Origin: Granulicella sp. L56 | GTDB taxonomy: Bacteria > Acidobacteriota > Terriglobia > Terriglobales > Acidobacteriaceae | Direction: 5' to 3' | DNA: 64,000 bases | NCBI RefSeq assembly: GCF_009765835.1 | Contig: NZ_LMUS01000001.1 | Location: forward strand, 682,001 to 746,000 | In this document: positions 32,221-52,178 of the stretch, piece after piece | How positions within the stretch are numbered: position 1 is the first letter of the stretch | How the letters are laid out: every line of letters begins with the position of its first letter | Position numbers and translations under genes: made by a program | The notes under the pieces: generated by a model | What the model was told of the DNA's origin: nothing | Databases searched by the model: none | The model's input: only the letters and a program-made list of their open reading frames with translations

Positions 32221-32255
32221 CCGCTGCCGGAAGTTTTTCCCCGGAAGGAGAGCAT

Positions 32256-32759: not shown

Positions 32760-32815
32760 AAAGCCCCACACCGAATCCTTTGCATCGTCTGCATGGGATT
32801 CGATGTGGGGCTTTT
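32760..32815. terminator. Long bidirectional terminator beside the PEP-CTERM gene
   Basis: AAAGCCCCACACCGAATCC (32760-32778) pairs with GGATTCGATGTGGGGCTTT (32795-32813 region) with one G-T pair, flanked by T-runs on the + side. It lies 20 bases past the end of the PEP-CTERM gene, so it can terminate that gene on the minus strand. Confidence 0.75.
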
Positions 32816-32834
32816 TGCCTGTTCTTACTGACTA

Positions 32835-33803: not shown

Positions 33804-33932
33804 ATGAAGAAAGCTTTTTTGACAGGGTTCCTTTTACTGCTCACGAGCAGCGCCTTTCCTCAACATCGTCGTCCCCGTCCCTGCCGTGTATGGAAGACAC
33901 GACACCATCAACGCATTTGCGTGAAGAGATAA
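33804..33932 (+). CDS. Small secreted cationic peptide precursor (42 aa)
   Basis: A perfect AGGAGGATC ribosome site (33793-33801) precedes ATG 33804. The N-terminus MKKAFLTGFLLLLTSSAFPQ is a compact signal peptide with likely cleavage near residue 18-20. The remaining ~22 residues are strongly basic (12 or more Arg/Lys/His) with two Cys (27 and 39) and one Trp. A strong terminator begins 18 bases after the stop, so the gene stands as its own transcription unit. I do not recognise the family; a secreted cationic peptide (bacteriocin-like, signal, or binding peptide) is a guess. The ribosome site, signal peptide and terminator together make it likely to be real. Confidence 0.6.
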   Translation: MKKAFLTGFLLLLTSSAFPQHRRPRPCRVWKTRHHQRICVKR

Positions 33933-33950
33933 CCTCGCGATCATCACAAG

Positions 33951-33989
33951 AACAAAAGCCCGCACATTCAAACCGTGTGGGCTTTTGTT
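33951..33989. terminator. Strong bidirectional terminator after the small peptide gene
   Basis: AACAAAAGCCCGCAC (33951-33965) pairs with GTGTGGGCTTTTGTT (33975-33989) over 15 positions with one G-T pair and T-runs on the 3' side. Confidence 0.85.
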
Positions 33990-34117
33990 GATTTAGGCCG
34001 CTTGTGAGTTTCAATCTCCAGCTTCTCTATTTTGCCGTAGAGGCTTGCCTGCATTTACCCAGTTGCTCTAACCGCTAAATTCCGTTATTCTTTGAAAGTT
34101 GCATGCAAACGCAATGT

Positions 34118-34194
34118 GCGCCCGTAGCTCAGTTGGATAGAGCAACTGGCTACGAACCAGTAGGTCGGGCGTTCGAATCGCTCCGGGCGCACCA
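34118..34194 (+). tRNA. tRNA-Arg (anticodon ACG)
   Basis: 77 bases including encoded CCA. Acceptor GCGCCCG/CGGGCGC; anticodon stem ACTGG/CCAGT with loop CTACGAA (anticodon ACG, normally modified to ICG, reading CGU/CGC/CGA). Its acceptor and T-arm are almost identical to those of the tRNA-Arg at 31683. Confidence 0.95.
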
Positions 34195-35793: not shown

Positions 35794-37071
35794 ATGTTGC
35801 AGGCATTTATCATCACCCTCCGCGAGGGGGTCGAAGCAGCGCTGATCGTGGGCATCGTCTTCGCCTACCTCTCCAAGATCGGCCGCAACGAGCTGAAGCG
35901 CATCGTCTTCTGGGCACTCGGAGCCGCCGTCGTCGCCAGCATCGGCGTCGCCATCGTCGTCGCCCACCTCAACTTCAACTCCGACATCATCGAAGGCTGG
36001 GTCATGCTCGCGGCTGCTGTCTTTGTGGTGAGCATGATCTGGTTCATGCACAAGACCGCCCGCTCCATGAAGGGCGAGATCGAATCCAGGGTCGCCAAGT
36101 TCACCGGCGGCGAAGACGGCCCCTCCCGCATCGGCCTCTTCCTCTTCGTCTTCCTGCTCGTCCTCCGCGAAGGCGTCGAGACCGTCCTCATCCTCTCGGC
36201 CGTCACTCTCAACTCGACCGAGCTACTCAGCTTCACCGGCACTCTCCTCGGCATCGCGGTAGCCGTCGTCTTCGGTGTCCTCTTCATCCGCGGCAGCGTC
36301 AAGATCAACCTCCAGCGATTCTTCCGCGTCACCACCGTCATCCTCTACTTCGTAGCATTCCAGCTCATCGTCAGCGGACTGCACGAGCTCAGCGAAAACG
36401 GTGTCCTCCCTTCCAGCACCACCGAGATGCGCCTCATCGGCCCCATCGTCCGCAACGACCTCTTCTTCTTCGTCACCATGCTCGCCCTGGCCGGCCTGAT
36501 GATGCTGCTCGAATACAAACGCCGCACCTCGGTTGAACTCCCTGCCACCGCCACTCCCGCCGACAAGCGTCGCGCCGACTGGACCCAGCGCCGCGAAAAG
36601 ATGTGGATGACCGCCGTCGTCGTCACCAGCTTCGTCTTCATCTTCCTCTCCACCGCCGAGTTCATCTACGCCAAGAGCACCACCGCGCTCTCGCCCACCA
36701 CCTCCGTCACTCTCGTCGGCAGCCAGGCCATCGTCCCCACCTCGCAGATCACCGACGACCAGCTCCACCGCTACGGCGTCCACGTCGACGACGGCAAAGG
36801 CGGCAGCACCGAAGTCCGCTTCCTCCTCTACAAAAAGCCCGACGGCAACATCGTCTCCGTAGCCGACGCCTGCCACATCTGCGGCCCGGTCGGCTTCTAC
36901 ATCAGCAGCCAGGGAATCACCTGCAAGATGTGCGCCTCCCCACTCGTGCCGCAATCGATGGGCCAGCCCGGAGGCTGTAATCCCATCCCGCTACAATCCA
37001 CCATCGGCGGCGGCGAAGTAGTCATCCAAGCCGCAGATCTCCGCGCCCTGGCCCCGGTCTTCGAGCGATGA
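35794..37071 (+). CDS. FTR1-family iron permease fused to a C-terminal DUF2318 Fe-S-type domain (425 aa)
   Basis: Residues 1-250 form an FTR1/EfeU-like permease with about seven membrane helices and two REGVE iron-path motifs (R10-E14 and near 128-132, LLVLREGVETVLIL). After a further membrane helix (about 270-290) comes a soluble domain with DACHICGPVGFY, CKMCAS and GGCNPIPL, the cysteine pattern of DUF2318, a putative metal or Fe-S domain. In Campylobacter-type P19/FTR1 systems these two parts are usually separate genes. Two FtsX permeases and an ATPase follow on the same strand, so this is the membrane permease of that iron uptake operon. No P19/Tp34 partner is visible. Confidence 0.88.
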   Translation: MLQAFIITLREGVEAALIVGIVFAYLSKIGRNELKRIVFWALGAAVVASIGVAIVVAHLNFNSDIIEGWVMLAAAVFVVSMIWFMHKTARSMKGEIESRVAKFTGGEDGPSRIGLFLFVFLLVLREGVETVLILSAVTLNSTELLSFTGTLLGIAVAVVFGVLFIRGSVKINLQRFFRVTTVILYFVAFQLIVSGLHELSENGVLPSSTTEMRLIGPIVRNDLFFFVTMLALAGLMMLLEYKRRTSVELPATATPADKRRADWTQRREKMWMTAVVVTSFVFIFLSTAEFIYAKSTTALSPTTSVTLVGSQAIVPTSQITDDQLHRYGVHVDDGKGGSTEVRFLLYKKPDGNIVSVADACHICGPVGFYISSQGITCKMCASPLVPQSMGQPGGCNPIPLQSTIGGGEVVIQAADLRALAPVFER

Positions 37072-37169: not shown

Positions 37170-38429
37170 ATGTTCTTCCGCCTCCTCTGGGAAAGCTTCC
37201 GCCGCCAGCGCCGCCGCAAGGCCCTCGCCGGAATCGCCATCCTACTCGGAACAACCGCCGTCACCGCCATGCTCGCGCTCGCCACCACCATCGGCGACCG
37301 CATCCATAAAGAGCTGGCCGTCTACGGAGCCAACATTGTCATCACTCCCAAAGCCGCCGACCTCGACGTAAAAATCGGTGGAATCAACATCAAGCCCGCC
37401 ACCGGCAACGCCTATCTCAAAGCCAGCGATCTCCCCAAACTCAAAGCCATCTTCTGGGCCAACAACATCACCGGCGTCTCCCCCGAACTCCCCATCACGC
37501 TCACCCTCGCCAACGGACAGCAACTCTCCGCCACGGGCCTCTGGTTCCATCACAACCTCGCCAACGGCGGCAGCAGCATGATCACGGGAGCGCCGCCATT
37601 GCACCCATGGTGGAAGCTCACCGGAGCATGGCCCTCCGCAGAAAACGAAGCCGTTGCCGGAGCAGCAACCGGTCTGCACATCGGCGACATCGTTCAGGCC
37701 GACAACACACCTCTCCGCATCACCGGCCTCGTCTCCACCGGAGACGCCACCGACAAGCGCCTTCTCCTCCCCCTCGAAACCGCGCAGAAGTTAGCCAACC
37801 TCCCCGACGCCGTCTCCCGCGTAGACGTCTCCGCCCGCACCAAACCCGAAGACGCCTTCGCCCGCAAAGACCCCGACACGCTCTCGCCGCAGCAGCACGA
37901 GATCTGGTACTGCCGCCCCTACGCCAACTCCATCGCCTACCAGATTCGCGAAGCCATCCCCGGCGCACAGGCCGACCAAGTCCGCCGCGTCGAGCAGAAC
38001 GAAGGCAACGTCCTCGAACGCATCAGCGGACTCATGTGGCTCATCAGCGCCGCCGCCCTACTCGCAGCCGGGTTCGCCGTCTCTGCGGCTATGGCCACCG
38101 CCATCCTCGAGCGCCGCGCCGAGATCGGTCTCATGCGCTCCCTCGGAGCCAGCAAAGGCGCTATCGCCTTCCTCTTCTACTCCGAGACCGGCCTGCTGGC
38201 CGTCTTCGCCGGAACCATCGGCTACCTCTTCGGCTCCGGCCTCGCCGCATGGCTGGGAGCCCGCATCTTCGCAGGCGACGGCGCAGCCGCAGCCGGCTCC
38301 GTCCTCAACCCCGTCCTGCTTCCTGTAGTCGTAGCTCTCGCCCTCGCCGTAGCCATCGCCGGAAGCACCCCGTCCATCCGCACCTCTCTCAAGATGGATC
38401 CCTCCACCATCCTCAGGGCGGACGCATGA
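37170..38429 (+). CDS. FtsX-family ABC permease 1 of the iron operon (419 aa)
   Basis: The MacB/FtsX layout is clear: a membrane helix at about 18-45 (RKALAGIAILLGTTAVTAMLALATTIGD), a periplasmic domain to about 285, and three membrane helices in the FtsX domain (GLMWLISAAALLAAGFAVSAAMATAILERRAEIGLMRSLGAS and following). The ERRAEIGLMRSLGAS stretch is the coupling-helix signature. It is followed by a paralogous permease and an ATPase, matching Cj1661-Cj1663 of the Campylobacter P19 operon by order. The likely job is energising release of iron, or moving a redox or metal-binding partner; this is unknown even in the known systems. Confidence 0.85.
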   Translation: MFFRLLWESFRRQRRRKALAGIAILLGTTAVTAMLALATTIGDRIHKELAVYGANIVITPKAADLDVKIGGINIKPATGNAYLKASDLPKLKAIFWANNITGVSPELPITLTLANGQQLSATGLWFHHNLANGGSSMITGAPPLHPWWKLTGAWPSAENEAVAGAATGLHIGDIVQADNTPLRITGLVSTGDATDKRLLLPLETAQKLANLPDAVSRVDVSARTKPEDAFARKDPDTLSPQQHEIWYCRPYANSIAYQIREAIPGAQADQVRRVEQNEGNVLERISGLMWLISAAALLAAGFAVSAAMATAILERRAEIGLMRSLGASKGAIAFLFYSETGLLAVFAGTIGYLFGSGLAAWLGARIFAGDGAAAAGSVLNPVLLPVVVALALAVAIAGSTPSIRTSLKMDPSTILRADA

Positions 38430-38446
38430 CACCAACAATCTTCCCC

Positions 38447-38491
38447 CACGTGGAGAGACCCCTATATTTCGCCGTTGCCGTTGCCTGTTCT
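38447..38491 (+). repeat. Dispersed repeat family 1, copy 4 (forward, short form)
   Basis: GTGGAGAGACCCCTATATTTCGCCGTTGCCGTTGCC tail, missing the left CATCTCGACC arm. It is the last forward copy before the strand switch. Confidence 0.75.
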
Positions 38492-38586: not shown

Positions 38587-39684
38587 ATGAAGCGCCTCAC
38601 CTTCCCCAGCATCCTCCGCCGCTCGTTGACCCACCGCCGCGCACGCAGCCTCTCCGCGCTGGTAGCACTCACCGTCTCCGCCGCCGTTGCCACTGCGCTG
38701 CTCACTCTCTACGCCGACCTCAACGCCAAACTCCACAAAGAGTTTCGCAACTTCGGAGCCAACGTAGTCGTCACCGCCTCTGCCTCATCCCCACTCCCAC
38801 CCAATGCACTCGCAGAAATCCAAAAAGCCGCAGGCCCCGACGCCCTCATTGCCCCCTTCGCCTACGCCGTAGCCACCACCGACCGCGGAACCTCCGTCGT
38901 CGTAGCAGGAACCGACTTCCCCGCCGTTCAGCGCCTCGACGCATGGTGGGACCTCGCCCACTGGCCCACCGCACCTGACGCCGCCCTGCTCGGTGACCGC
39001 GCCGCCAACTTCATCGCCGACGAGCACGCCGTCAAGCTCACCTACGCCAACAAAGCCATCACGCTCACCGGAGCAGGCCGCATCAAGACCGGTGGCGACG
39101 AAGACAGCCGCATTTACATCCCGCTGCCCGCCTTCACCCAATGGACAAGCATCGGCCCAACCGTCATCGAGCTGCAAATCCCCGGCGGGGCCGCCGCCGT
39201 CGAAGCCGCACTCAACCGCCTCCGCGCCCAGTTCCCCACTTTACAAATTCAACCGGTCCGCCAGCTCGTCGAAGGCGAATCCCGCATCGTCGATCGCACC
39301 CACTCGCTCATGTACGGCTCGGTGCTGCTCATCGCACTTACTGTCGCCGTCAGCGTGCTCGCTACCCTCTCCGCCTCGGTCCTCGAACGCCGCCGCGACT
39401 TCGCATTGATGAAAGCCCTCGGCGGCTCGCAGACACAGCTCATGTCCCTGTTCCTGCTCGAAGCCCTCGTCCTCGCGCTGGCGGGAGTCGTCCTCGGCTA
39501 CATCACAGGCTCCGCCGCCGCATGGGCCATCAGCCAAGCCAACTTCCACACCGCCACACTGCCGCGCCTCTCCGTCCTGCCGCTGGTGCTTCTGCTCAAC
39601 ATCGCCATCGCCGCCTTCGCCGCCCTCTTCCCCGTCCGCGTCCTGCGGGGCCTCCAACCAGCAGCCTTGCTCAAGGGTGAATGA
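38587..39684 (+). CDS. FtsX-family ABC permease 2 of the iron operon (365 aa)
   Basis: The ATG at 38587 follows AGGTGAACGC. Like the preceding gene it has one N-terminal membrane helix (about 20-45), a periplasmic domain and a C-terminal FtsX domain with three helices (YGSVLLIALTVAVSVLATLSASVLERRRDFALMKALGGSQTQ, LFLLEALVLALAGVVLGYITGS, LPLVLLLNIAIAAFAALF). The ERRRDFALMKALGGS motif is the expected coupling helix. The two permeases probably form a heterodimer with one ATPase dimer. Family 1 and family 2 repeats separate it from its neighbours, but all genes of the operon stay on one strand. Confidence 0.85.
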   Translation: MKRLTFPSILRRSLTHRRARSLSALVALTVSAAVATALLTLYADLNAKLHKEFRNFGANVVVTASASSPLPPNALAEIQKAAGPDALIAPFAYAVATTDRGTSVVVAGTDFPAVQRLDAWWDLAHWPTAPDAALLGDRAANFIADEHAVKLTYANKAITLTGAGRIKTGGDEDSRIYIPLPAFTQWTSIGPTVIELQIPGGAAAVEAALNRLRAQFPTLQIQPVRQLVEGESRIVDRTHSLMYGSVLLIALTVAVSVLATLSASVLERRRDFALMKALGGSQTQLMSLFLLEALVLALAGVVLGYITGSAAAWAISQANFHTATLPRLSVLPLVLLLNIAIAAFAALFPVRVLRGLQPAALLKGE

Positions 39685-39703
39685 CAGATGAGCCACAAAT
39701 CCG

Positions 39704-39735
39704 GGTGCCCCATGTCCCGATTTTGGGACATGGGT
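39704..39735. repeat. Hairpin repeat family 2, copy 3
   Basis: GGGTGCCCCATGTCCC, GATTTT, GGGACATGGG: a perfect 10-bp stem (39710-39719 with 39726-39735). Only the GGGTGCCCCAT prefix is shared with copies 1 and 2. Confidence 0.75.
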
Positions 39736-39779: not shown

Positions 39780-40520
39780 ATGCCCGAAAGCCTAAGCCCC
39801 ATCGAAAGCGAAACCCGTCCCGACTGCGCCGTCATCTCCCTTACCGGAGTCACACGCGAGTATGCCGGCCGCGCCGGAGCCGTGCGCGCGCTCGATCACG
39901 CGGCCTTCAGCATCGTCGCCGGCGAGTGGGTCGCCATCACCGGCCCCTCAGGCTCGGGAAAATCCACGCTGGTCAATCTCATCGGCTGCCTCGACCGCCC
40001 CACCTCGGGGGAGCTGCGCATCGACGGCGTCAACGTAGCCACGATGTCTGCAACGGAACTCGACCGCTTCCGCGCCGACAAGATCGGCTTCATCTTCCAG
40101 CAGTTCCACCTGATTCCCTACCTGTCGGCGCTTGAGAATGTGATGCTGGCGCAGTACTTCCACTCCATGACCGACGAGTCCGAAGCCCGCGCTGCGCTTG
40201 CTCGTGTCGGTCTCGCCGCGCGGGCAGAGCATCTTCCCAGCGAGCTATCCGGCGGGGAACAGCAGCGTGTCTGCATCGCGCGGGCGCTAATTAATAACCC
40301 GCCGATTCTGCTTGCAGATGAGCCTACGGGAAATCTGGATGCGGCCAATCAGACGATTGTTGCGGAGCTTTTGCAGGATCTGCATCGCAATGGCCACACG
40401 ATTGTCATGGTGACGCACGATCCTGAGATGGCGGCGCTTGCGCAGCGCAAGATTGCCCTGAGTCATGGCAAGGTCTTCTGCCACCCCGTCGGCGGCCAAG
40501 TCGTCACTTTGAAGCGCTAG
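39780..40520 (+). CDS. ABC transporter ATPase of the iron operon (246 aa)
   Basis: MacB/LolD-type ATPase with Walker [10 protein letters not shown] (about 56-64), signature LSGGEQQR (about 157-164) and Walker [13 protein letters not shown] (about 177-188). It closes the FTR1-FtsX-FtsX-ATPase operon. Codon use changes within the gene: up to about 40120 nearly all Ile and Asp codons are ATC and GAC; after about 40270 they are mostly ATT and GAT and the third position turns to G/T. That shift marks the compositional switch described in the findings. No residue loss accompanies it, so the protein looks functional. Confidence 0.88.
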
Positions 40521-40526
40521 ACTCAA

Positions 40527-40602
40527 TGTAACCGGACAACGTGCTTCTGAGCGGTTACAAATTAATTTAGGTAACCACTTCAATAGCATCTGAATGGTTA
40601 CA
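40527..40602. repeat. Symmetric array of four GGTTAC-type sites between convergent genes
   Basis: TGTAACC (40527-40533), GGTTACA (40553-40559), GGTAACC (40570-40576) and GGTTACA (40596-40602) have start spacings of 26, 17 and 26 bases. The middle pair frames the self-complementary AAATTAATTT, forming an AT-cored dyad. Possible protein-binding array; no known dif or DnaA consensus is matched. Confidence 0.4.
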
Positions 40603-40614
40603 TGCTTAGTTCAA

Positions 40615-41472
40615 CTAGCGCTCGCCCCACTTCAACTTCGAGCGCAGCACATTGAAGACTCCGTTCGGCGTATGCCGCAACAGACGTACGCTGTACTGCG
40701 AACGGCAACAGTAGACGTTGTCTCCCAACATCAGCTCTACCGCCTCCTGCCCGTCGACGGTGAGATAGGTCTGGTTAGGAACCCCTTCAATATGAATACT
40801 TACAGAGGAATCTCCAGGTACTACTATAGGTCGCAGCGTCAGCAGATGCGGACAGATCGGCGTCACCAGCATGGCATTCACGTTGGGCATCACAATCGGC
40901 CCATTGGCTGCGAGATTGTAAGCCGTTGATCCTGTTGGAGTTGCAACGATAATCCCATCCGCCCGGAATTTGGCCACGAGCTGCTCGTCAATCTCGACCA
41001 GGAAGTCGGCCATACGAGCTATTGTTCCTTTAGAAACAACGACATCGTTCAGGGCATCCCACTGATGCAGCAGCTTTCCCTCGCGTCGCAGCTCGGCGTG
41101 CATCATGCTGCGAACCTCAACATCGGCGCGGTGATCACACCAGTCCTGAAGCGTGACATAAAGGTCCGCCAGCGGAATCTCCGTCAGAAATCCCAGTGAA
41201 CCGAGATTTACGGAAAGGATCGGCGTCACCGTTCGCGCAAAGGCGCGTGCCGCTGCCAACAAAGTGCCATCGCCACCCAGCACGATGACCAGATCGGGCT
41301 TGTGCTTCGGCAACTCTGGCCGCTCAATGCCTACAGCGCCCGCCAAATATGCCGCACTATCCGGATCGAGAACGTACTGATAGCTGTGGCTTTCGAGCCA
41401 GCTCACCAGCTCGCGCAAAATTCCGGCGAGTTCCGGCTTCTGAGGCTTGGAGATAATGGCAGCAAGAGGCAT
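40615..41472 (-). CDS. nadK: NAD kinase
   Basis: The start is set at ATG 41472 (MPLAAIISKPQKPELAG); the frame is open further upstream but that region is repeat DNA. The phosphate-donor loop GGDGT is at 66-70, followed by LGSLGFLTEI and VVSKGT segments. The substrate-binding GIIVATPTGSTAYNLAANGP and the C-terminal PGDSSVSIHIEG, TVDGQ are also present. The enzyme phosphorylates NAD to NADP. It follows tlyA on the minus strand, a pairing seen in many bacteria, here separated by 140 bases with a family 1 repeat. Confidence 0.95.
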   Translation of the reverse strand: MPLAAIISKPQKPELAGILRELVSWLESHSYQYVLDPDSAAYLAGAVGIERPELPKHKPDLVIVLGGDGTLLAAARAFARTVTPILSVNLGSLGFLTEIPLADLYVTLQDWCDHRADVEVRSMMHAELRREGKLLHQWDALNDVVVSKGTIARMADFLVEIDEQLVAKFRADGIIVATPTGSTAYNLAANGPIVMPNVNAMLVTPICPHLLTLRPIVVPGDSSVSIHIEGVPNQTYLTVDGQEAVELMLGDNVYCCRSQYSVRLLRHTPNGVFNVLRSKLKWGER

Positions 41473-41528
41473 ATCGCTAGTGTAACGGCACTTCGGGTGC
41501 TGGGTGATGATGGGTATTGCAAGCAAAA

Positions 41529-41580
41529 GCGAAATACAGGGGTCTCTCCACTGAGCTTCGCTTCGGTCGAGATGACGTAC
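41529..41580 (-). repeat. Dispersed repeat family 1, copy 5 (reverse)
   Basis: Read on the + strand: CGAAATACAGGGGTCTCTCC, then ACTGAGCTTCGCTTCGGTCG and AGATGACGTA. It is the first copy right of the strand switch and the first in reverse orientation. Confidence 0.85.
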
Positions 41581-41612
41581 GTTGGTGTGGGTAGAGGTAG
41601 ATTGTTTGCAAT

Positions 41613-42401
41613 TTACTGTTTGCCGAAGCGGGCGTGGAGCAGGTACTCGTGGTTGCCTTCCATGCCTAAGATCGGCGAATCGATGACCTCGATGCCGCTG
41701 CCGCGTTGCTCGATGACGCACTCGCGAACGCGTTGCACGGCCTGCTGGCGGGCGTCGGGATCGCGGACGATGCCGCCCTTGCCTACATTGGCGCGGCCTG
41801 CCTCGAACTGCGGCTTTACCAGAATCACAGCTTCGCCCGACCATTGCTGCGATGCTGTCGAGAGCGCAGACAGCACTGCGGGAAGAACCAGTGTGGCCGA
41901 GATGAAGGAGACGTCCATGGCTATGAATGACGGGACTGCACCGTTGCCCAACAGTTCGCCTTCTGTCAGCAGGCGGGCATTGGTGCGCTCGCGCAGGGTC
42001 ACGCGCGGATCGTCGCGGAGCTTCTGGGCAATCTGGCCGTAACCGGTATCGACGGCGAGGACGCTGGAGGCGCCGCTCTGCAACATGCAGTCGGTAAAGC
42101 CTCCGGTGGAGGCTCCGATATCGACACAGGCCAGGCCGGTCAACGCTATCTGCCAGTGGGCCAGCGCCTGCTCCAGCTTCAGTCCGCCGCGGCTGACATA
42201 TTTGAGGTCCGAGCCCAGCAGCCGAATCGCAACTTCGGCGCGAACCGCAGTTCCCGGCTTATCGACGCGTTGCTCATCCACCAGCACCCGGCCTGCGAGG
42301 ATGAGCGCCTGCGCCCGCTCGCGCGAGGCGGCGTGGCCCTGATCGACGAGCAGCTTGTCCAGACGTATCTTCTCAGCGCGCGTTTTAGACGGGTCAGCCA
42401 T
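41613..42401 (-). CDS. tlyA: TlyA-family rRNA 2'-O-methyltransferase / hemolysin A-like (262 aa)
   Basis: The start is the ATG at 42401. The N-terminal S4 RNA-binding domain covers residues 10-75 (RLDKLLVDQGHAASRERAQALILAGRVLVD). The RrmJ/FtsJ-type methyltransferase follows, with the SAM motif CVDIGASTGGFTDCML near 90-105, the AVDTGYGQIAQKLRDDP region and the MDVSFIS motif near 155-162. TlyA proteins methylate riboses in 16S and 23S rRNA. It diverges from an ECF sigma operon. Confidence 0.9.
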   Translation of the reverse strand: MADPSKTRAEKIRLDKLLVDQGHAASRERAQALILAGRVLVDEQRVDKPGTAVRAEVAIRLLGSDLKYVSRGGLKLEQALAHWQIALTGLACVDIGASTGGFTDCMLQSGASSVLAVDTGYGQIAQKLRDDPRVTLRERTNARLLTEGELLGNGAVPSFIAMDVSFISATLVLPAVLSALSTASQQWSGEAVILVKPQFEAGRANVGKGGIVRDPDARQQAVQRVRECVIEQRGSGIEVIDSPILGMEGNHEYLLHARFGKQ

Positions 42402-42581
42402 ATTTTTGCATCTATCAATAAGGTACATGTTGAGCGGAGCTGGAAATGAACAACTATTGCGACGAAATTTCGAGTAAAGTTGCATTTGGAATGATGCCCA
42501 AAACGATAAAAGCAGCGAGTTGCCTGACGGACTCCATATATTCCATCTTTCGGCAATCTGTTCGAGCCGCAGGTGCGTTTT

Positions 42582-43148
42582 ATGTATAGAGAGACGGGCA
42601 TCGTCAATACACCGCCACTATCCACACAGGATGATGCCGCCCTGCTTGCGCTGATACAGCGGGGCGACGAATATGCGATGGCATCGCTGTTCGACCGCTA
42701 CTCGAAGGTGGTCTACTCCGTTGCGTTGCGCGTGCTTCGCGACCCGGCGGCGGCGGAGGATGTCTTACAGGAAGTGTTCATGCAGATCTGGCGCAGTCCC
42801 GATAGTTTTGTCGCAACCCGCGGAAGTCTTGGCGGCTGGCTCGCGGTAGTATCCCGCAACCGGTCGATCGACACCCTGCGCCGGAAGCGCCCCACGGAAT
42901 GTGTCGATGATATTGCGCTCGCGTCTAACTACAATCTAGCCAATGAGGCAGAACGGGAGTTGATGGTCGAGAAGGCGCGCGGCGTCATCCAGTTGCTTCC
43001 GATGGAGCAGCGCAAGACCCTGGAGATGGCTTTTTTTGATGGACTGACGCACTCTGAGATCGCAGAAATGACGGGCGATCCGCTGGGAACGGTAAAGACA
43101 AGGATTCGCAGCGGGCTCTCTACGTTGAGAAAGGCATTCACGGCATGA
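42582..43148 (+). CDS. ECF RNA polymerase sigma factor, SigK-like (188 aa)
   Basis: The start is set at ATG 42582 with AGG about 8 bases upstream; an in-frame GTG at 42573 is possible. Region 2 (about 20-95) has YAMASLFDRYSKVVYSVALRVLRDPAAAEDVLQEVFMQIWRS, and region 4 (about 135-185) has LLPMEQRKTLEMAFFDGLTHSEIAEMTGDPLGTVKTRIRSGL. Together these are a complete ECF sigma factor. Its stop overlaps the start of a RskA-type anti-sigma gene (ATGA), so the pair is co-translated. The stress it answers is unknown. Confidence 0.92.
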   Translation: MYRETGIVNTPPLSTQDDAALLALIQRGDEYAMASLFDRYSKVVYSVALRVLRDPAAAEDVLQEVFMQIWRSPDSFVATRGSLGGWLAVVSRNRSIDTLRRKRPTECVDDIALASNYNLANEAERELMVEKARGVIQLLPMEQRKTLEMAFFDGLTHSEIAEMTGDPLGTVKTRIRSGLSTLRKAFTA

Positions 43149-43996
43149 ACACAACCGGACACATTGAACGCGACGATCTGGTGCTGTTTGCCATGCAGCT
43201 TCTCTCGCAAGAGGAGCACGCTGTAGCCGCAGCGCATATCACGAACTGCCCCGAGTGCCGCCACGAACTGGCCGAGGTGCAGGGCGACCTGGCCGTCTAT
43301 GCCCACAGCGTCGAGATGCAGGCCCCGCCTGCCAGCGCCCGAGAGCGACTGATGAAACAGGTGGCGCACGAGAAAAAAGTGATCTCCATTGATACCGCGA
43401 GTGCAGCGGAGCCGGAACTTCCTAGTCGCGGGTTCGGCGGTCGTAGCTCGCTTACCGAAGACGATCTGCCGCCGCGAGGATTTGCAGGCAGGGTCTTCCC
43501 CTGGCTGGGCTGGGCACTGGCCGCCGGACTGGCGGTGACTGCGGGCAACTTCTATATGCAGCGCACCGCCCTGCAGGGTTCCATCGCCGAGCAGAAGGAC
43601 CAGATTGCGCAACTGACCACGGATGCCGCCACCGCGCACGAGGTGATGGAGACGATGACCGATCGCAATGCGATGCGGGTCACGCTGACCAAGGCTCAGA
43701 CGGCTCCGGTGCCGCAGGCGCGGGCGACCTACGTGGCGGAGAAGGGCCTGCTGATCTTTCAGGCCAACAACATGGAGCCGTTACAGCCTGCGAAGGTCTA
43801 TGAGCTGTGGCTGATTCCGGCCAATGGCAGCAATCCCATTCCTGCGGGCACCTTTCAGCCGGACCAGCGCGGCTATGCCAGCATTGTGATGCCGCCGCTG
43901 CCCAAGGGAGTCGAGGCGAAAGCATTCGGCGTGACGATTGAAAACGAGGGTGGTTCGCAGACGCCGACCTTGCCCATCGTTATGGTTGGTGCTTGA
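43145..43996 (+). CDS. Membrane anti-sigma factor, RskA/zinc-finger type (283 aa)
   Basis: The N-terminal anti-sigma domain has HITNCPECRHEL near 31-42, the HxxxCxxC zinc-binding anti-sigma motif. A single membrane helix lies near 117-137 (VFPWLGWALAAGLAVTAGNFY), followed by a coiled-coil-like segment and a C-terminal RskA domain (about 170-283; VYELWLIPANGSNPIPAGTFQPDQRG). It would hold the ECF sigma factor at the membrane until a periplasmic signal triggers proteolysis. Its ATG overlaps the sigma gene. Confidence 0.9.
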   Translation: MNTTGHIERDDLVLFAMQLLSQEEHAVAAAHITNCPECRHELAEVQGDLAVYAHSVEMQAPPASARERLMKQVAHEKKVISIDTASAAEPELPSRGFGGRSSLTEDDLPPRGFAGRVFPWLGWALAAGLAVTAGNFYMQRTALQGSIAEQKDQIAQLTTDAATAHEVMETMTDRNAMRVTLTKAQTAPVPQARATYVAEKGLLIFQANNMEPLQPAKVYELWLIPANGSNPIPAGTFQPDQRGYASIVMPPLPKGVEAKAFGVTIENEGGSQTPTLPIVMVGA

Positions 43997-45823: not shown

Positions 45824-47281
45824 CTACGGACCGGTGACGCGAACAGATACGCCCTTGCCCTGTAACGGGATAATCGTGTCAATCGAGTCGATATCCGTGC
45901 GGATGATCGACAGGTTGGTCGAATCGAGGGAGGTCACATAGACCTTTCCAGACGGTGACCCGGTCGTGACAGCGATCCAGCCCGGATGACCGCAGATGGT
46001 CTTCGGGGATGAGGTCGTGCAGGTGCTATTAGGCAAACTAGTGGCTGACAGATCGGGCAGACCGGTAATGGTTGTGGTGACGGTGTTCGAGGTGAGGTTG
46101 ATCACCGAGACCGAGCAGACTGTGCTCACACCGGCGACTGCCGTAGCCGCACAGGGAAGGGTGGGGTCTCCGGCGTTGGCGACATAAGCGCGGGTTCCGT
46201 CCTGCAGCACGGCGACCATGACCGGATTGATGCCGACCGGGACCGTCGCAAGAACGGTTCCGAATTGAGCGGTGTCTACCGGGTTGTTGGGATCGCAGTT
46301 CGGATTGGAGGGCAGCGCCGTTGCCGAGCAGAGCGGGATGCTGATAATGCTGACCGTGCCCGGTGTGGTGCCATCGCCTGCGTTGGCGACGACCAGTTCA
46401 TTAAGGGTGGGGGCGAAGTCGGCCCACACAGGATTCGTGCCGACTGGGATGTAGCTCTTGCCGGTGCTGGGGATGCTATCCAGTTGGTTGGTCTGGGAGT
46501 TGATGACGCTGACCGTGCCGTCTCCCTTGTTCATGGTGAAAGCGCGCCTGCCGTCTGCCGTCATGACGCCATAGACGGGATTTTTTCCGATTGCGATGGG
46601 GGTCGGCTCAAAGGTATTGGTCGCGGTTTCGAGGGTGTAGGCCTGGCCGTTGCCGGAGCCGTCTGCACCAAGGGCATAGACACGCGGTGCGCCGTTGAGG
46701 CCGACGACGTAGGTCCCATTGGGGACGGGGCCGAACTCCTGGTTGAGGTTCAGGGCTGGTGCCGCTCCGGTCAGATCGCCAATGGCAGACCTTCCCGGCT
46801 CAGCAACATAGCTATGGGTGCTGAGGGGCAGGATGCTGACCGGGTCGGCTCCGGAGAGCAGGGTGATCTGAGATACTTGGGTACTCAACAACGAAGTCGA
46901 GATACCGAAGCCACTGACCGTGGCGTCCCGGTTGAGCGTATAGCCGGTGTCGCCCGTGGAATCAAGCGCCAGATAGTAGGGGTCTACGCCAATGCTGGCC
47001 GTGATGAGCACGGTGTCGCCCGAGAAGTCGACGAACGTTACCAGACCGGGGGTGCTTGCTCCCGTGGTGGAGATAGCGACCGCATATTTGGGTGGCTGGG
47101 CGGCTGGGCCAACGGGGTTGATGGCAGTGACCACCGGTCGATAGGTGTTGCCGCAGCCGATAAGAGACGCCGATACGGCCGCTACGAGAGCGAACCGGAA
47201 TGCGAACCGCGCTACAGACCGGGGAAGGTGCTGTCCGTGTGCCTGTGTGTTTGCTTCTGATTCAATTCTTGCTGAATGCAA
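45824..47281 (-). CDS. YncE-like beta-propeller lipoprotein (about 485 aa)
   Basis: A TTG start at 47281 with GGAG 5 bases upstream gives a lipoprotein signal with lipobox SLIGC; GTG 47338 would add 19 residues. The body is a seven-bladed-type propeller with repeats of the 40-residue kind: VSVINSQTNQLDSIPSTGKSYIPVG, GTVSIISIP, SVSVINLTSNTVTTTITGLP and NPVWADFAP/NPVMVAVLQDGTRAYVANAGD. Such YncE-type proteins are found on the periplasmic or surface side, often of unknown function. No catalytic residues can be named. It faces a DUF92 gene across a short divergent gap. Confidence 0.78.
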   Translation of the reverse strand: MHSARIESEANTQAHGQHLPRSVARFAFRFALVAAVSASLIGCGNTYRPVVTAINPVGPAAQPPKYAVAISTTGASTPGLVTFVDFSGDTVLITASIGVDPYYLALDSTGDTGYTLNRDATVSGFGISTSLLSTQVSQITLLSGADPVSILPLSTHSYVAEPGRSAIGDLTGAAPALNLNQEFGPVPNGTYVVGLNGAPRVYALGADGSGNGQAYTLETATNTFEPTPIAIGKNPVYGVMTADGRRAFTMNKGDGTVSVINSQTNQLDSIPSTGKSYIPVGTNPVWADFAPTLNELVVANAGDGTTPGTVSIISIPLCSATALPSNPNCDPNNPVDTAQFGTVLATVPVGINPVMVAVLQDGTRAYVANAGDPTLPCAATAVAGVSTVCSVSVINLTSNTVTTTITGLPDLSATSLPNSTCTTSSPKTICGHPGWIAVTTGSPSGKVYVTSLDSTNLSIIRTDIDSIDTIIPLQGKGVSVRVTGP

Positions 47282-47370
47282 AACTACTCCCGCCGTGGTG
47301 CTGGTGTTGGCTATGCTCAAGGTCTGATTGTAAATCACCGGGGAGCATGTAGCTGTTGCCGGAGGAGGAA

Positions 47371-48198
47371 ATGCACAGAATGGAACCGCAAAAGGCGACC
47401 GAGGCAGGACGGAACCGGCGGCAGAGTGCCGCGCTGGTGTGGATTGTCACTCCCTTGATGGTGCTGGGAGCGGCGTGGAGACCGCTTCATGAGCGATCGT
47501 CCGCCTCGTGGATGATGCCGCTGCTGCTGAGTGTGGGCTTTGCGGTTCTGGTCTGGCTGCTGAAGGCAGCGACCCGGCCAGCAGCGGCGATTGGGTTGGT
47601 GATCTGCATGGTGCTGGCGGAGCCGCGGCAGGCTGGAGCTGAGATCAACAGCGCGGCACTGGCGGCGCTCATTGCTCTGTTCGTGCTGACGTTTGCAGCC
47701 ACGCGGTTTGGCAGGGCAAAGAAGGAGATGCAAAAGCTGGCGGAGCGGCGCGGTGGAAGGCGCGCCTCGCAGATTGTGGCCAATCTTGGCGTGGCGGCGC
47801 TGTGCGCTGCGATGGGGTGGCATGGCGGCTGCATTGCCGCCCTGGCCGAGGCTGCCGCAGATACGGTCTCTTCGGAGATTGGGCAGGCGCTTGGCGGACG
47901 GGCGTGGATGATCACGACCGGGCAGCGGGTTTCGGCTGGGACTGATGGCGGCGTGAGTTTTGCAGGGACGGTGGCTGGAGTTTTGGCTGCCTCCGTGGTG
48001 GTGGGTGCGGGCGGGATTCACGGTGCGCTGGGAGCGACAGAGACTCTGATGGTGTTCGCAGCGGCCTGCGCGGGGTTGGGCTTCGACAGCGTGCTGGGGG
48101 CGACCGTGGAACGACGCGGATGGGTGAGGAACGATCTGGTGAACTTCAGCTCGACGCTGTTTGCGGCTTTGATTGTGGTGGTGTGGATGCTCATTTGA
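47371..48198 (+). CDS. DUF92 family membrane protein (275 aa)
   Basis: The start is ATG 47371 right after GGAGGAGGAA; a TTG at 47356 is also in frame. There are about seven hydrophobic segments, including ALVWIVTPLMVLGAAW, WMMPLLLSVGFAVLVWLL, AALIALFVLTFAATRF, TVAGVLAASVVVGAGG and LMVFAAACAGLGFDSVLG. The DUF92 pattern ALAEAAADTVSSEIGQ, GTDGGVSFAGT and ERRGWVRNDLVNF is clear. Plant and cyanobacterial relatives (VTE6) phosphorylate phytyl phosphate; in this bacterium the activity is unknown. No neighbour suggests a pathway. Confidence 0.85.
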   Translation: MHRMEPQKATEAGRNRRQSAALVWIVTPLMVLGAAWRPLHERSSASWMMPLLLSVGFAVLVWLLKAATRPAAAIGLVICMVLAEPRQAGAEINSAALAALIALFVLTFAATRFGRAKKEMQKLAERRGGRRASQIVANLGVAALCAAMGWHGGCIAALAEAAADTVSSEIGQALGGRAWMITTGQRVSAGTDGGVSFAGTVAGVLAASVVVGAGGIHGALGATETLMVFAAACAGLGFDSVLGATVERRGWVRNDLVNFSSTLFAALIVVVWMLI

Positions 48199-48228
48199 GG
48201 GAGCGGCCTGAAGAGTCAGCGTAGCTCC

Positions 48229-48292
48229 GGCAAAATACAGGGTCTCTCCACTGCCCCATTCGACTGCGCTCAGGGTTCGGTCGAGATGACGT
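48229..48292 (-). repeat. Dispersed repeat family 1, copy 7 (reverse)
   Basis: GGCAAAATACAGGGTCTCTC, CACTGCCCCATTCGACTGCG, CTCAGGGTTCGGTCGAGATG, ACGTGG. It follows the DUF92 stop. Confidence 0.85.
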
Positions 48293-48328
48293 GGTTTTTA
48301 GGGTTGGCTGGAAACGGCAGGTGAAGGG

Positions 48329-49009
48329 TTAGAGCTCAGATTTGCCTTCCAGCCAGCTATGCAGCCAGGCCGGGTCCGCGTGAAGACGCCATGCCGTATA
48401 GCTGAGCATCTCGTGGAAGTAGCGCATGGCTAGATCGTAGTTGCTGATGTGGCCGAACATGGGGCGCGGCGAGGTATAGATGTGCAGCCCGACGCTGTGG
48501 CAGAGTTCGCGGATGCGGAAGAGATGGGTGCCATCGCTGACGACGACGATAGTGTTGAGATTGTTTTCGCGGGCGATGGCGGCGAGGCGGTGGACCTGCT
48601 GCTCGGTGTCGGTGGAGCGGGTTTCGGCGATGATGTTGCCGAAGGGAATGCCGTTGGCGAGGAGATAGTCGCGACCGACGCCGCCTTCGGTGTTGCCGGA
48701 GTCTTTATCGCCGCCTCCGCCGAGGGTGATGACGAGCGGGGCGATCTGCTTGCGATAGAGCTCGACGGCGTGATCGAGACGGGCGTGGAGCACGGGCGAG
48801 GGGTGGCCGCTGTACTCTGCCGCTCCGAAGACGGCGATGGCGTCGGCGGGCTGCGCCTGATCCTCGGCGGCAACCTGCGAGATCTGCTGATAGACCCAGA
48901 CGAACCAGATCAGCCCCACCAGCAGAAGGACTCCGACGAGTCGGCGAAGAAAGCTGCTGCCCGCGGAGGAGCGGCGCGATCGACGTAGATTGGAGGGGGA
49001 AGGCGTCAT
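48329..49009 (-). CDS. YdcF/ElyC-family membrane-anchored DUF218 protein (226 aa)
   Basis: One membrane helix near 25-43 (LVGVLLLVGLIWFVWVYQQ) precedes a DUF218 domain: DAIAVFGAAEYSGHPSPVLHARLDHAVELYRK, PLVITLGGGGDKD, GVGRDYLLANGIP, AETRSTDTEQQVHRLAAI, VVSDGTHLFRIREL. YdcF, SanA and ElyC proteins act in envelope integrity, possibly in peptidoglycan or lipid-carrier metabolism. The anchored form with a periplasmic domain fits SanA/YdcF. It lies between two repeat copies and forms no obvious operon. Confidence 0.85.
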   Translation of the reverse strand: MTPSPSNLRRSRRSSAGSSFLRRLVGVLLLVGLIWFVWVYQQISQVAAEDQAQPADAIAVFGAAEYSGHPSPVLHARLDHAVELYRKQIAPLVITLGGGGDKDSGNTEGGVGRDYLLANGIPFGNIIAETRSTDTEQQVHRLAAIARENNLNTIVVVSDGTHLFRIRELCHSVGLHIYTSPRPMFGHISNYDLAMRYFHEMLSYTAWRLHADPAWLHSWLEGKSEL

Positions 49010-49112
49010 CGTGAATGAAAGATGAGTCTACGGGAGATGAGGCTGGATGGGAAGATGTTTGGTTGTGGCGATGTCGCTGGTTATTTCTGATGGAGTTGGA
49101 TGCAAGAACAAA

Positions 49113-49193
49113 CAACAGCAACAGCAACGGCGAAATACAGGGGTCTCTCCACTGCCCCTTCGACTACGCTCAGGGTTCGGTCGAGATGACGTG
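49113..49193 (-). repeat. Dispersed repeat family 1, copy 8 (reverse)
   Basis: CAACAGCAACAGCAACGGCG leads into AAATACAGGGGTCTCTCCAC, TGCCCCTTCGACTACGCTCA and GGTTCGGTCGAGATGACG. It lies between the YdcF start and the end of the Sua5-like gene. Confidence 0.85.
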
Positions 49194-49221
49194 CCTTTAG
49201 GTTTGGTTTCTGTACGGGTTT

Positions 49222-49866
49222 TTAGCGTTGCAGCGCGAGGGCTATTTCGTGGGTCGGGATTGCGCCTTCGCGGAGGATCATCCATGAGTTGCCGCCACCG
49301 GAAAGATCGACGATGGTGGTCGGGATGGAGCGGGCGGTGGGGCCGCCGTCAACGATCAATGGGATTTTGTCGCCTAGCTGTTCTAGCACGCAGTTGGCGT
49401 AGGTGCACTCGGGATAGCCGTGGAGGTTGGCCGAGGTTGCGGTGATGGGCAGGCCGAGACGAGCAACGACGGCGCGGGAGATGGCAGCCTCGGGAACGCG
49501 CAATGCGACGTTGCCGGTGTTGGCGGTAACTCGGAGCGGAAGCTTGGAGCCTGCCTTGACGACGATGGTCAGCGGGCCGGGCCAGAACCTTTCGGCGAGG
49601 CGGTCGAAAGCGGAGTCAAGCTGGCGGGCGATCTCGTAGGCCTGCGCGACCTCGGCGATGAGCAGCGAGAGCGGCTTGTGGCGGGCGCGGGTTTTGAGCT
49701 CGTAGATACGGTCGACAGCTTTGAGGTTTACCGGGTCGACGGCGAGGCCGTAAAAGGTGTCGGTGGGCAGAGCGACGACGTTGCCGCGATACAGATTGCT
49801 GACGACCTGATTGATGAGTTCCGGTTCAGGCTCGTCGGGGTGGATGCGAAGTGTCTGCGCCGTCAA
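49222..49866 (-). CDS. L-threonylcarbamoyladenylate synthase family protein (Sua5/YciO/YrdC, 214 aa)
   Basis: The preferred start is TTG 49866, which has GGAG 6 bases upstream and gives a standard 214-residue protein; ATG 49935 lacks a ribosome site. The YrdC-like domain shows NVVALPTDTFYGLAVD, ELKTRARHKPLSLLIA (KxR/SxN-type nucleotide site), FWPGPLTIVVK, NVALRVPEA and ITATSANLHGYP. The family makes threonylcarbamoyl-AMP for the t6A37 tRNA modification; YciO-type members are less well defined. It is divergent from the SpoU methylase gene. Confidence 0.88.
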   Translation of the reverse strand: MTAQTLRIHPDEPEPELINQVVSNLYRGNVVALPTDTFYGLAVDPVNLKAVDRIYELKTRARHKPLSLLIAEVAQAYEIARQLDSAFDRLAERFWPGPLTIVVKAGSKLPLRVTANTGNVALRVPEAAISRAVVARLGLPITATSANLHGYPECTYANCVLEQLGDKIPLIVDGGPTARSIPTTIVDLSGGGNSWMILREGAIPTHEIALALQR

Positions 49867-50037
49867 ATCTTGCTCCTGTGCCGGGTTCAAATGTCTGAGA
49901 TGGTGAGACAACCATATAAAGCGGCAAACCTGCATCAGAATATCAGCATTGCCTTCTACATTATGAGAGGTTGGCTGTTTCGTTATATGAGGTTGGCCGC
50001 GCTGCTGTGTGAATGCGAACAGCGTAAGATTTGCCTG

Positions 50038-50844
50038 ATGCCCTTCTTCGAAAAGACTGCCGCCGCTACTGTCGTCTCCAGCCGCGCCAATGGCCGCGTC
50101 AAGCAGTTGCGCGCGGCGTTTGCCGGACAGGCGCGGTTGAGCGGAGGTATGGTGGCCATCGAGGGCGACCATCTGCTGGCCGAGGCGCTGCGCAGCGGCA
50201 TGGTGTTGAAGACGGTCTTTGTGAGCGAGCGGCGCGAGGTGCCGAAGATCGTTCCGCGAGGCGTTGAAGTGCTGCTGCTGACGGATGAGGTGTTTGAGAG
50301 CGTGGTGGAGACGCGGTCTCCGCAGGGAGTGGCGGCGCTGATGGTGCCGCCGGTTCCGACGATGGATGCGGTGCTGCGGGGAACGCCGCTGATTCTGATT
50401 GCGGCAGGTTTGCAGGACCCGGGAAACTTGGGGACGCTGGTGCGTTCGGCGGAGGCTTTTGGAGCGACAGGAGTGCTGGTCACTCCGGGGACAGTGAGCG
50501 CGTGGAACCAGAAGGCGCTGCGGGCGAGCGTGGGCAGCGTGTTTCGGATGCCGGTGGTCGCGGCTACGGTGGAGGAGATCGCTGGGTTGAAGTCGCGGGG
50601 TGTGAGACTGCTGGCGACGGTGGGCTTTGATGATGCCGGGACGATTGCTGCGCAGGAGATGGACTTCTCTTCGGCGTGTGCTTTGATGATTGGTAACGAG
50701 GGCGCGGGTTTGGCGGCGGAGTGGATGGAGATGGCCGATGCGCGGGTGACGATTCCCTGCCCCGGCCCGGTAGAGAGTTTGAATGCGGCGATTGCGGGAT
50801 CGTTGCTACTGTATGAGGCTTCGCGGCAGAGGAGCAGACGATGA
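50038..50844 (+). CDS. SpoU/TrmH-family RNA 2'-O-methyltransferase (268 aa)
   Basis: The start is set at ATG 50038 (MPFFEKTAAATVVSSRANGRVKQLRAAF), which fits the family N-terminus; the frame is open further upstream. The N-terminal substrate-binding domain covers about 20-105. The SPOUT domain has LQDPGNLGTLVRSAEAFGATGVLV near 125-148, MIGNEGAGL near 222-230 and IPCPGPVESLNAAIAGSLLLYE near 240-261, the three deep-knot motifs. It methylates a ribose in rRNA or tRNA. Its stop overlaps the rarA start by 4 bases. Confidence 0.9.
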   Translation: MPFFEKTAAATVVSSRANGRVKQLRAAFAGQARLSGGMVAIEGDHLLAEALRSGMVLKTVFVSERREVPKIVPRGVEVLLLTDEVFESVVETRSPQGVAALMVPPVPTMDAVLRGTPLILIAAGLQDPGNLGTLVRSAEAFGATGVLVTPGTVSAWNQKALRASVGSVFRMPVVAATVEEIAGLKSRGVRLLATVGFDDAGTIAAQEMDFSSACALMIGNEGAGLAAEWMEMADARVTIPCPGPVESLNAAIAGSLLLYEASRQRSRR

Positions 50845-52178
50845 GCTTGTTCGATGCTTCGCCAATCTCCGCTGCGGCGGCGCATGGGCGGCAGGCTCCG
50901 CTGGCGGAGAGAATGCGTCCACAGACGCTGGATGAGTACGTCGGGCAGGATCATTTGCTGGGGCCGGGCAAACCGCTGCGGCTGGCGATTGAAGGTGACG
51001 ATGCTACATCGATGATCTTCTGGGGGCCTCCGGGGACGGGCAAGACTACGCTGGCGAAGATTATTGCGCATATGACTTCGGCGAGCTTCATCGAATTTTC
51101 GGCGGTGCTGTCGGGGATCAAAGAGATCAAGCAGGTGATGGTAGAGGCGGAGAAGGCGGCGGGTTTCGGGTCGCGCACGATTTTGTTCGTCGATGAGATT
51201 CATCGATTTAACAAGGCGCAGCAGGATGCGTTTCTGCCTTACGTGGAGCGCGGCACGATTCGGCTGATCGGCGCGACGACGGAGAATCCTTCGTTTGAGA
51301 TTATTGCCGCGTTGTTGTCTCGGTGTCGCGTGTATACCTTGCAGGCGCTTTCTGAAGAGCAGATTGTCGCTTTGCTGCAACGGGCTTTGAGCGATGAGAA
51401 GCGCGGGCTTGGCGGCTCTGGATTGAGCGCGGATGAGGATGCGCTGGCGACGATTGCGTCTTATTCGAGCGGCGATGCACGCAATGCGCTCAATGCGCTG
51501 GACGTTGCGGCGAAGCTGGCGGAGGGACGCAAGCAGAAGACCATCACTAAGGCTATTGCTTCGGAGGCGATGCAGCGGCGGGTGTTGCTTTATGACAAGA
51601 AGGGCGAGCAGCACTACGACATCATCTCGGCGCTGCACAAGAGCGTGCGCAACTCCGATCCGGACGCTGCGCTGTATTGGCTGGGGCGAATGCTCGAAGC
51701 TGGCGAAGACCCAATGTACTGCGCGCGGCGCGTTGTGCGCATGGCGGTCGAAGATATTGGGCTGGCGGCTCCTGAGGCGCTGAACCTTTGCCTCTCGGCC
51801 AAGGATGCCATGCATTTTCTGGGGCAGCCGGAGGGTGGGCTGGCACTGGCGCAGGCGGTGGTGTATCTGGCGCTGGCTCCTAAGTCGAATGCGGTGTATG
51901 TGGCGTATGGCGCGGTGAAGGCCGACATTGAGGCGACCGCGGCGGAGCCTGTGCCGCTACATCTGCGTAATGCCCCGACGAAGCTGATGAAGGAGCTTGA
52001 TTATGGCAGGGACTATCAGTATGCGCACGATGTTGAGGGGCGCGTCGCTGATATGGAGTGCCTGCCTGCGAGCCTCGCTGGACGGCAGTACTATCAGCCG
52101 ACGGGTGAAGGACGAGAGAAGCTGCTGGCACAACGCATGGACGAGATTGCGCGAATCAAAGCGGCGAAGCGGAAGTAG
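50841..52178 (+). CDS. rarA: Replication-associated recombination AAA+ ATPase
   Basis: RarA/MgsA (445 aa) acts at stalled replication forks together with SSB. Walker A GPPGTGKTT is at 62-70, Walker B ILFVDEIHRFNKAQQD near 114-129, sensor 1 LIGATTENPSFE near 142-153, and the sensor 2 region SSGDARNALNALD near 211-223. The C-terminal tetramerisation domain contains RRVVRMAVEDIGLAAPEAL and YGRDYQYAHDVEG. It overlaps the SpoU methylase stop by 4 bases. Confidence 0.95.
   Translation: MSLFDASPISAAAAHGRQAPLAERMRPQTLDEYVGQDHLLGPGKPLRLAIEGDDATSMIFWGPPGTGKTTLAKIIAHMTSASFIEFSAVLSGIKEIKQVMVEAEKAAGFGSRTILFVDEIHRFNKAQQDAFLPYVERGTIRLIGATTENPSFEIIAALLSRCRVYTLQALSEEQIVALLQRALSDEKRGLGGSGLSADEDALATIASYSSGDARNALNALDVAAKLAEGRKQKTITKAIASEAMQRRVLLYDKKGEQHYDIISALHKSVRNSDPDAALYWLGRMLEAGEDPMYCARRVVRMAVEDIGLAAPEALNLCLSAKDAMHFLGQPEGGLALAQAVVYLALAPKSNAVYVAYGAVKADIEATAAEPVPLHLRNAPTKLMKELDYGRDYQYAHDVEGRVADMECLPASLAGRQYYQPTGEGREKLLAQRMDEIARIKAAKRK

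Follow-up and report, generated by a model that had tools for sequence, protein, structure and literature searches.

A strand-composition switch inside a conserved gene cluster of Granulicella sp. L56 as a probable local imprint of former replication direction

In Granulicella sp. L56, the plus strand of a 64,000-nucleotide stretch of contig NZ_LMUS01000001.1 (C1:682,001-746,000; hereafter the window) turns from C-rich to G-rich where an iron operon meets the NAD kinase gene nadK. This switch appears to be an imprint that an earlier direction of replication left at this place, rather than the replication origin of the chromosome. We tentatively read the block from nadK to the ATPase gene rarA, whose left edge the switch would mark, as a relict polarity island that for a long time was replicated the other way and arrived mainly via homologous exchange with a close lineage carrying the block inverted; we give this reading a probability of roughly 0.48. 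Past inversion is the likeliest general background to such switches.

The host genome (G000) is a 4.72-Mb draft in 15 contigs. The cumulative G-C count of the window has its minimum at 41,424, the plus strand being C-rich leftward of 41.4 kb and G-rich rightward, and segmentation on all G+C bases places the top change point at 41,425 by a wide margin (log-likelihood ratio [lnLR], 365). At a grain of 500 bp the observed value is 362, against a maximum of 78 in 2000 permutations of 500-bp blocks. Codon third positions, followed from the FTR1 gene to the anti-sigma gene, break at 40,100 (support interval, 40,082 to 40,127), within the intact ABC-ATPase gene of the iron operon. The initial annotation had placed a switch of this sense at 40 to 41.5 kb whatever the gene strand, and both points are borne out. 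Its four hand counts of G and C (13/27, 13/26, 24/12, and 27/11) are exact, and the codon change that it noticed in the ATPase gene is real: isoleucine is encoded by 8 ATC and 0 ATT codons before 40,110 and by 1 ATC and 6 ATT after it, while aspartate goes from 5 GAC and 1 GAT to 1 GAC and 4 GAT. Gene by gene, the plus-strand third-position skew is mostly negative to the left and positive to the right for genes on both strands, reaching -0.59 to -0.65 in three genes at 35.8 to 39.7 kb and +0.38 to +0.49 in five genes, on both strands, at 45.8 to 52.2 kb. The left-side exceptions are a gene at 18.0 to 21.8 kb (+0.11) and one at 32.8 to 33.5 kb (+0.04), and from 52 to 64 kb the bias is weak and mixed, with two negative genes. 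The left edge is fairly sharp and the right edge gradual. The features around the switch are as follows.

35794..37071, plus strand: FTR1 iron permease fused to an FtrD-like Fe-S domain (Pfam FTR1, FtrD-like), gene 1 of the iron operon, in the C-rich block; third-position skew, -0.59
37170..38429, plus strand: FtsX/MacB-type permease A of the iron operon (Pfam FtsX, MacB_PCD); skew, -0.65
38587..39684, plus strand: FtsX/MacB-type permease B of the iron operon (Pfam FtsX, MacB_PCD); skew, -0.61
39780..40520, plus strand: ABC-ATPase of the iron operon (Pfam ABC_tran), with the internal third-position switch seen in the break and the codon counts
40082..40127, no strand: support interval of the third-position polarity break (counterpart in the relative G001, 40,082-40,118)
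40521..40614, no strand: convergent intergene between the ATPase gene and nadK
40615..41535, minus strand (start approximate): NAD kinase, nadK (Pfam NAD_kinase N- and C-terminal), first gene of the G-rich island
41613..42431, minus strand: TlyA-type S4/FtsJ methyltransferase, tlyA (Pfam S4, FtsJ), in the island
42573..43996, plus strand: ECF-type sigma factor and RskA-like anti-sigma factor (Pfam), in the island
45824..52178, both strands: strongest G-rich part, with a beta-propeller-like protein, DUF92, DUF218, Sua5/YrdC, and the RarA/MgsA ATPase; skew, +0.38 to +0.49

The right-side genes also include a phosphodiesterase-like protein, between the anti-sigma factor and the propeller protein; the latter has no Pfam match, and its description as beta-propeller-like is our own reading. 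Named relatives of the window's tlyA come from Edaphobacter, Granulicella, and other Acidobacteriaceae.

The polarity of the window is also written in two families of oriented repeats. Family 1 is a dispersed element of about 55 bp that reads AAATACAGGGGTCTCTCCACT, a variable inner part, and TTCGGTCGAGATGACGTGC. A family 2 motif has the core GGGTGCCCCA and the opposite orientation. In the window, the repeat search placed them as follows.

38449..38484, minus strand: family 1, last copy left of the switch
41522..41587 (position also given as 41,539), plus strand: family 1, first copy right of the switch
14309, 26166, and 28771, minus strand: family 1, other minus copies
44054, 48239, 49140, and 54163, plus strand: family 1, other plus copies
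39703..39735, also 37097 and 38515, plus strand: family 2, all copies in the window

Family 1 therefore flips between 38,449 and 41,539, and 9/9 window copies, all between predicted genes, fit the switch. We scored repeat orientation against the skew of the surrounding DNA, with the element itself excluded, over 1.43 Mb of G000. There, 41 of the 57 family 1 copies are concordant, 4 are discordant, and 12 lie in neutral DNA; outside the window the numbers are 34, 4, and 10 (binomial P = 6e-7). Gene strand does not account for the pattern, as each orientation is found in intergenes flanked by minus-strand genes and in intergenes flanked by plus-strand genes. Neighboring copies in G000 agree in 61 of 96 pairs against 48.2 expected (P = 0.005; 99 of 100 listed places used), and G001 carries the same orientations in the same intergenes. 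Genome-wide counts with at most one mismatch are 161 in G000, 130 in G001, 22 in G032, 18 in G026, 17 in G014, and 6 in G002; 8 of 19 genomes have none, and a control with the reversed pattern found 0.

For family 2, 19 copies in G000 are concordant, 0 discordant, and 3 neutral. This count uses the shorter form GGGTGCCCCA, the second that we tried, after the strict 12-mer GTGGGTGCCCCA had given 0 copies in the sampled DNA; a first look allowing up to three mismatches gave 5/5. Elsewhere, 36 named loci hold 17 nonneutral copies, of which 16 fit, and the one such copy in G030, G002, and G032 does not. All 12 family 1 copies at 1.08 to 2.73 Mb of G026 are minus and all 3 below 0.57 Mb are plus, while the copy just right of dnaA is minus. 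Contig C1 of G014 has eight family 1 copies right of dnaA: six are plus, and the two minus copies (2,113,865 and 2,116,526) lie in the cluster studied here. The left arm of G023, as measured from dnaA, holds 4 plus and 1 minus copies of family 1, against the simple expectation, and 4 plus and 2 minus of family 2; its skew is mixed.

Gene order is conserved across the switch. Among 37 same-genus genomes searched, 22 carry FTR1, tlyA, and rarA on one contig, and in 19 of these the order and strands are kept within about 20 kb; the initial annotation had proposed such a synteny comparison. The exceptions are G026 (rarA far off), G016 (rarA adjoining FTR1), and G031 (FTR1 70 kb from tlyA). The iron operon adjoins nadK in 30 of 68 nadK loci, including almost every close one, and does not in 28, with 10 undecided; 25 of the 28 have at most 65% nadK identity, and in one of the 28, L102, the ATPase gene still stands beside nadK. 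The ATPase/nadK boundary is thus a genus-level junction. In one clade (G002, G032, L103, L106, L107, L108, and L112), insertions of about 2 to 5 kb separate nadK from tlyA.

Although the order is mostly kept, the third-position skew of the same genes in relatives ranges from -0.82 to +0.80. With gene effects removed, left and right skew correlate (r = 0.62; 28 species with both sides), and the left-right step of G000 is the largest of the 28 (0.68; z = 2.1), followed by G001, L116, L112, and G023; the step is reversed in L120 and L127. Third-position breaks, computed on the G000 window scale in nine genomes of our choosing, fall at 40,100 (G000), 40,112 (G001), 40,654 (G023), 40,651 (L113), 40,750 (L116), 40,894 (L112), 40,951 (L114), 41,107 (G030), and 37,889 (G032), so that eight of nine lie within 40.1 to 41.2 kb and those of G000 and G001 inside the ATPase gene. 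A break at 40.5 to 40.8 kb is in part to be expected from the meeting of two convergent gene strands at this place.

Leading strands in the genus are G-rich, most plainly in G033 and G014. In G033 (dnaA at 2.50 Mb), skew is negative in 13 of 14 stretches at 0.1 to 2.42 Mb, left of dnaA, and positive in 5 of 8 on the other side; in G014, it is negative in 3 of 3 stretches left of dnaA and positive in 12 of 17 right of it.

The sense of the switch, negative to positive, had been proposed to mark a replication origin, an inversion endpoint, or a misassembly, a global skew minimum being expected of the first and a local kink of the second. Over stretches covering about 30% of G000, we found the local kink. 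Blocks of either sign, together with neutral, low-GC stretches, occur on C1 and C6, and the nearly contiguous 500 to 940 kb of C1 hold nine skew segments, among them a further G-rich island at 648.5 to 653.3 kb (+0.27) within C-rich DNA. As far as sampled, then, there are several sign changes on both contigs and no global minimum at the switch; dnaA is at C6:1,713,287, on another contig, within a positive run. The dnaA position and the other polarity blocks together exclude the main origin within this sample. oriC lies away from dnaA in a few species, and the position of dnaA alone is not decisive. In G000, the minus-to-plus change of repeat orientation nearest dnaA is at C6:1,683-1,686 kb, about 28 kb to its left, and for this reason oriC may not be at dnaA. 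The inversion part of the expectation did not hold for a present-day endpoint: gene order is conserved across this spot, and an endpoint where the third positions break would have split the ATPase gene, which is intact.

Our preferred reading, the relict island, would run from about the 3' half of the ATPase gene to rarA and beyond. This tract would long have been copied by forks moving the opposite way and would then have entered its present C-rich context with gene order intact, its synonymous sites still lagging behind that context. The route may have been mainly homologous exchange, with a tract end in the ATPase gene and a close, unsampled lineage with the inverted block as donor; we favor exchange over an inversion endpoint because the tract end lies inside a gene. 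In G000, composition and oriented repeats are opposite to those of the left flank, and the right flank is neutral; by skew, a G-rich tract lies between C-rich stretches in G001, G023, and G032, the G032 block spanning about 1.005 to 1.095 Mb. In G002 and G014, the sampled rarA-ward side is opposite in sign, the other side being unsampled beyond 12 kb or neutral.

Several observations support this reading. The break falls inside the intact ATPase gene in both G000 and its close relative G001, the polarity of the block differs between species with the order kept, and inversion of the block is seen in locus L123 and, by gene positions, in G016. From G000 to G023, all ten genes from the ATPase to rarA shift toward negative skew (mean, -0.22), whereas the three genes left of the ATPase change by +0.04 to +0.06; such a uniform shift of ten genes, with the operon genes unshifted, fits one island decaying in step. 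At fourfold sites these two genomes differ by 0.24 to 0.37 in the three operon genes ahead of the ATPase gene, by 0.63 in the ATPase gene itself, and by 0.41 to 0.53 further right. Site sharing among G000, G001, and G023 is uneven (for example, 37.0 to 37.5 kb, permutation P = 0.001 and 0.003; 40.7 to 41.0 kb, P = 0.037), as expected of traces of short exchanges.

Other results weigh against it. A search for a donor clade of either side, by protein trees built for left, middle, and right genes from 29 species (28 in the case of the right block), found none: every tree unites G000, G001, and G023 on a long stem (0.16 to 0.18), which gives no sign of import from a sampled clade. The 3' codons of the G000 ATPase gene are closer in nucleotides to those of the G-rich species G002 (0.83) than to those of G023 (0.79), while the protein is closer to that of G023 (0.98) than to that of G002 (0.94), which agrees equally well with a close donor and with a change of composition in place. 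Rate variation could also produce the uneven site sharing. The surroundings to the right in G000 are near zero rather than negative (745.9 to 940 kb, -0.02), similar breaks nearby in other clades would call for more than one event or for an old common ancestry, and part of the step is a coding-strand effect of the convergent gene pair, the ATPase-to-nadK jump being about 0 to 0.25 in uniformly polarized species.

The runner-up, which we consider rather improbable, also starts from inversion: the block would have been inverted in this lineage, gained the opposite bias, and been inverted again with endpoints that matched or almost matched the first ones, leaving the order seemingly untouched. 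In L123 the FTR1-sua5 block is indeed flipped with respect to rarA, and polarity jumps at that edge (-0.50 in rarA against +0.15 to +0.49 in nadK to sua5, +0.2 to +0.5 in most block genes), and gene positions suggest the same flip in G016 (C4:76840-85864). Opposed repeats at 38,450-38,484 and 49,118-49,152 (35 nucleotides, 94% complementary) could recombine. However, the endpoints of two separate events would have to match, and the ATPase gene, which is intact, would not have survived an endpoint at the third-position break.

We find it less likely still that the switch is an old rearrangement junction, formed at the root of the genus when the operon came to lie beside a nadK-rarA block of far greater age. 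Each of the two sides would have brought its own polarity, and the step would have persisted or been refreshed since. The distribution of the operon-nadK adjacency agrees with this, as do the eight breaks clustered at 40.1 to 41.2 kb and a weak same-polarity site memory, computed within gene and codon box (kappa, 0.16 to 0.20), that links the G000 right block to G002, G032, L112, L111, and L116 and its left block to L114 and L116. Yet both sides have since been under one fork direction, many congeners with the junction are uniformly positive or negative, and genes at 22 to 30 kb left of the operon are negative in G000 and positive in G032, which indicates that the left side has changed too.

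That the switch merely reflects gene content and strand, the operon preferring C-ending codons, seems very improbable. An additive fit across species does assign values of -0.15 to -0.34 to the operon genes and of 0.06 to 0.22 to those on the right, but the G000 step remains the largest after their removal, island genes on both strands share the positive sign, the repeats flip, and the break lies within one gene.

A bolder proposal, and a long shot, is a second replication start near the ATPase-nadK junction, whose forks would travel rightward across the island until they met the main fork in it. More broadly, with the same slim chance, the junction in Edaphobacter/Granulicella would be a conserved secondary start or a frequent site of fork reversal, with nadK to rarA copied against the main fork in many species. 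The change is origin-like in sense, fairly sharp on the left and gradual on the right, and several clades show it at almost the same position. Moreover, with arms assumed to run from dnaA to the antipode (where the G033 cluster lies almost exactly) and contig C1 of G061 and of G062 taken as the named record, the cluster reads toward dnaA in G023, G033, G028, G014 (read as L108 for its skew), G061, and G062, and in five of these six (all but G033) the right-block genes are positive or mixed although the arms predict negative; repeated relics explain these five only at some cost, and for this reason we retain a local change of fork direction as the bold reading. Against it, we found no DnaA-box cluster in the window, only a single one-mismatch box at 38 to 44 kb, although the dnaA loci of G000, G023, and G033 show no cluster either. 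Many other islands would demand the same explanation, uniformly negative species such as G033 lack the switch, and the left edge of the G032 block lies near 1.0 Mb, about 50 kb left of the operon.

Finally, a present-day inversion endpoint or a misassembly at 40 to 41.5 kb would also yield a composition switch, but we dismiss both, since order and strands are the same in 19 of 22 genomes, the one-contig G023 and G033 included, and the switch recurs with the same gene order in G001 and, displaced and weaker, in G023.

Further left in the window, two tRNA-Arg genes (TCG and ACG; 31683-31759 and 34118-34194) flank near-neutral DNA of lower GC content. The gene called there at 32.8 to 33.5 kb (PEP-CTERM) has no match in seven relatives, and the interval (31683-34194) is possibly a small island.

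In the literature that we searched, we found no skew polarity islands or oriented repeats in Edaphobacter, which does not prove their absence. New here are a second strand marker, the repeat orientation that flips with the skew, and the occurrence of the same genes with either polarity in congeners. Whether skew sign alone is evidence of gene inversion is disputed: local GC-skew inversions have been taken as marks of inverted DNA (Merrikh and Merrikh 2018, PMC6220195), and this inference has been criticized (Liu and Zhang 2022, PMC9098844), in the parts of these papers that we consulted. The locus offers a natural test case, in which one set of genes, mostly unchanged in order, is strongly biased with one sign or the other in different species, and in which the sign changes inside an intact gene. 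The two repeat families provide a reading of strand history that is independent of base composition and could map past fork direction genus-wide. Should secondary initiation be true, this would be a bacterial chromosome with a lasting, transferable strand signature.

Both families are short, intergenic, and present in many copies, reminiscent of repetitive extragenic palindromic (REP) elements, which, with the IS200/IS605-like REP-associated tyrosine transposases (RAYT/TnpAREP), include CGTC-tagged repeats (PMC3733652, PMC6006769, and PMC3116915, in the sections consulted). Family 1 has the many intergenic copies of a REP element and ends in GATGACG, that is, starts with CGTC on the other strand, and is a candidate for the CGTC superfamily; its fold z-scores are weak (-1.2, -1.8, and -0.3). 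The sole Y1-transposase (RAYT-like) gene of G000 is flanked, by eye, by the family 2 motif (L248, about 1378-1415 and 1932-1968), and a dedicated RAYT gene flanked by family 1 was not found; G014 and G002, with 17 and 6 family 1 copies, gave no Y1 match. Orientation by local skew is absent from the REP/RAYT descriptions in those sections. In this respect the repeats resemble strand-biased octamers such as architecture imparting sequences (AIMS) and FtsK orienting polar sequences (KOPS), whose orientation tracks the arm, but they are about 55 bp long with variable inner parts. The switch shares with the skew minimum of a replication origin the negative-to-positive change along the plus strand, while it is a local kink among other polarity blocks, with dnaA elsewhere. 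As in the local GC-skew inversions of PMC6220195, as far as described in the part consulted, a stretch has a skew opposite to that of its arm; here, in contrast, gene order and strand are conserved across the edge, the edge lies inside a gene, and the orientation of the repeats flips with it.

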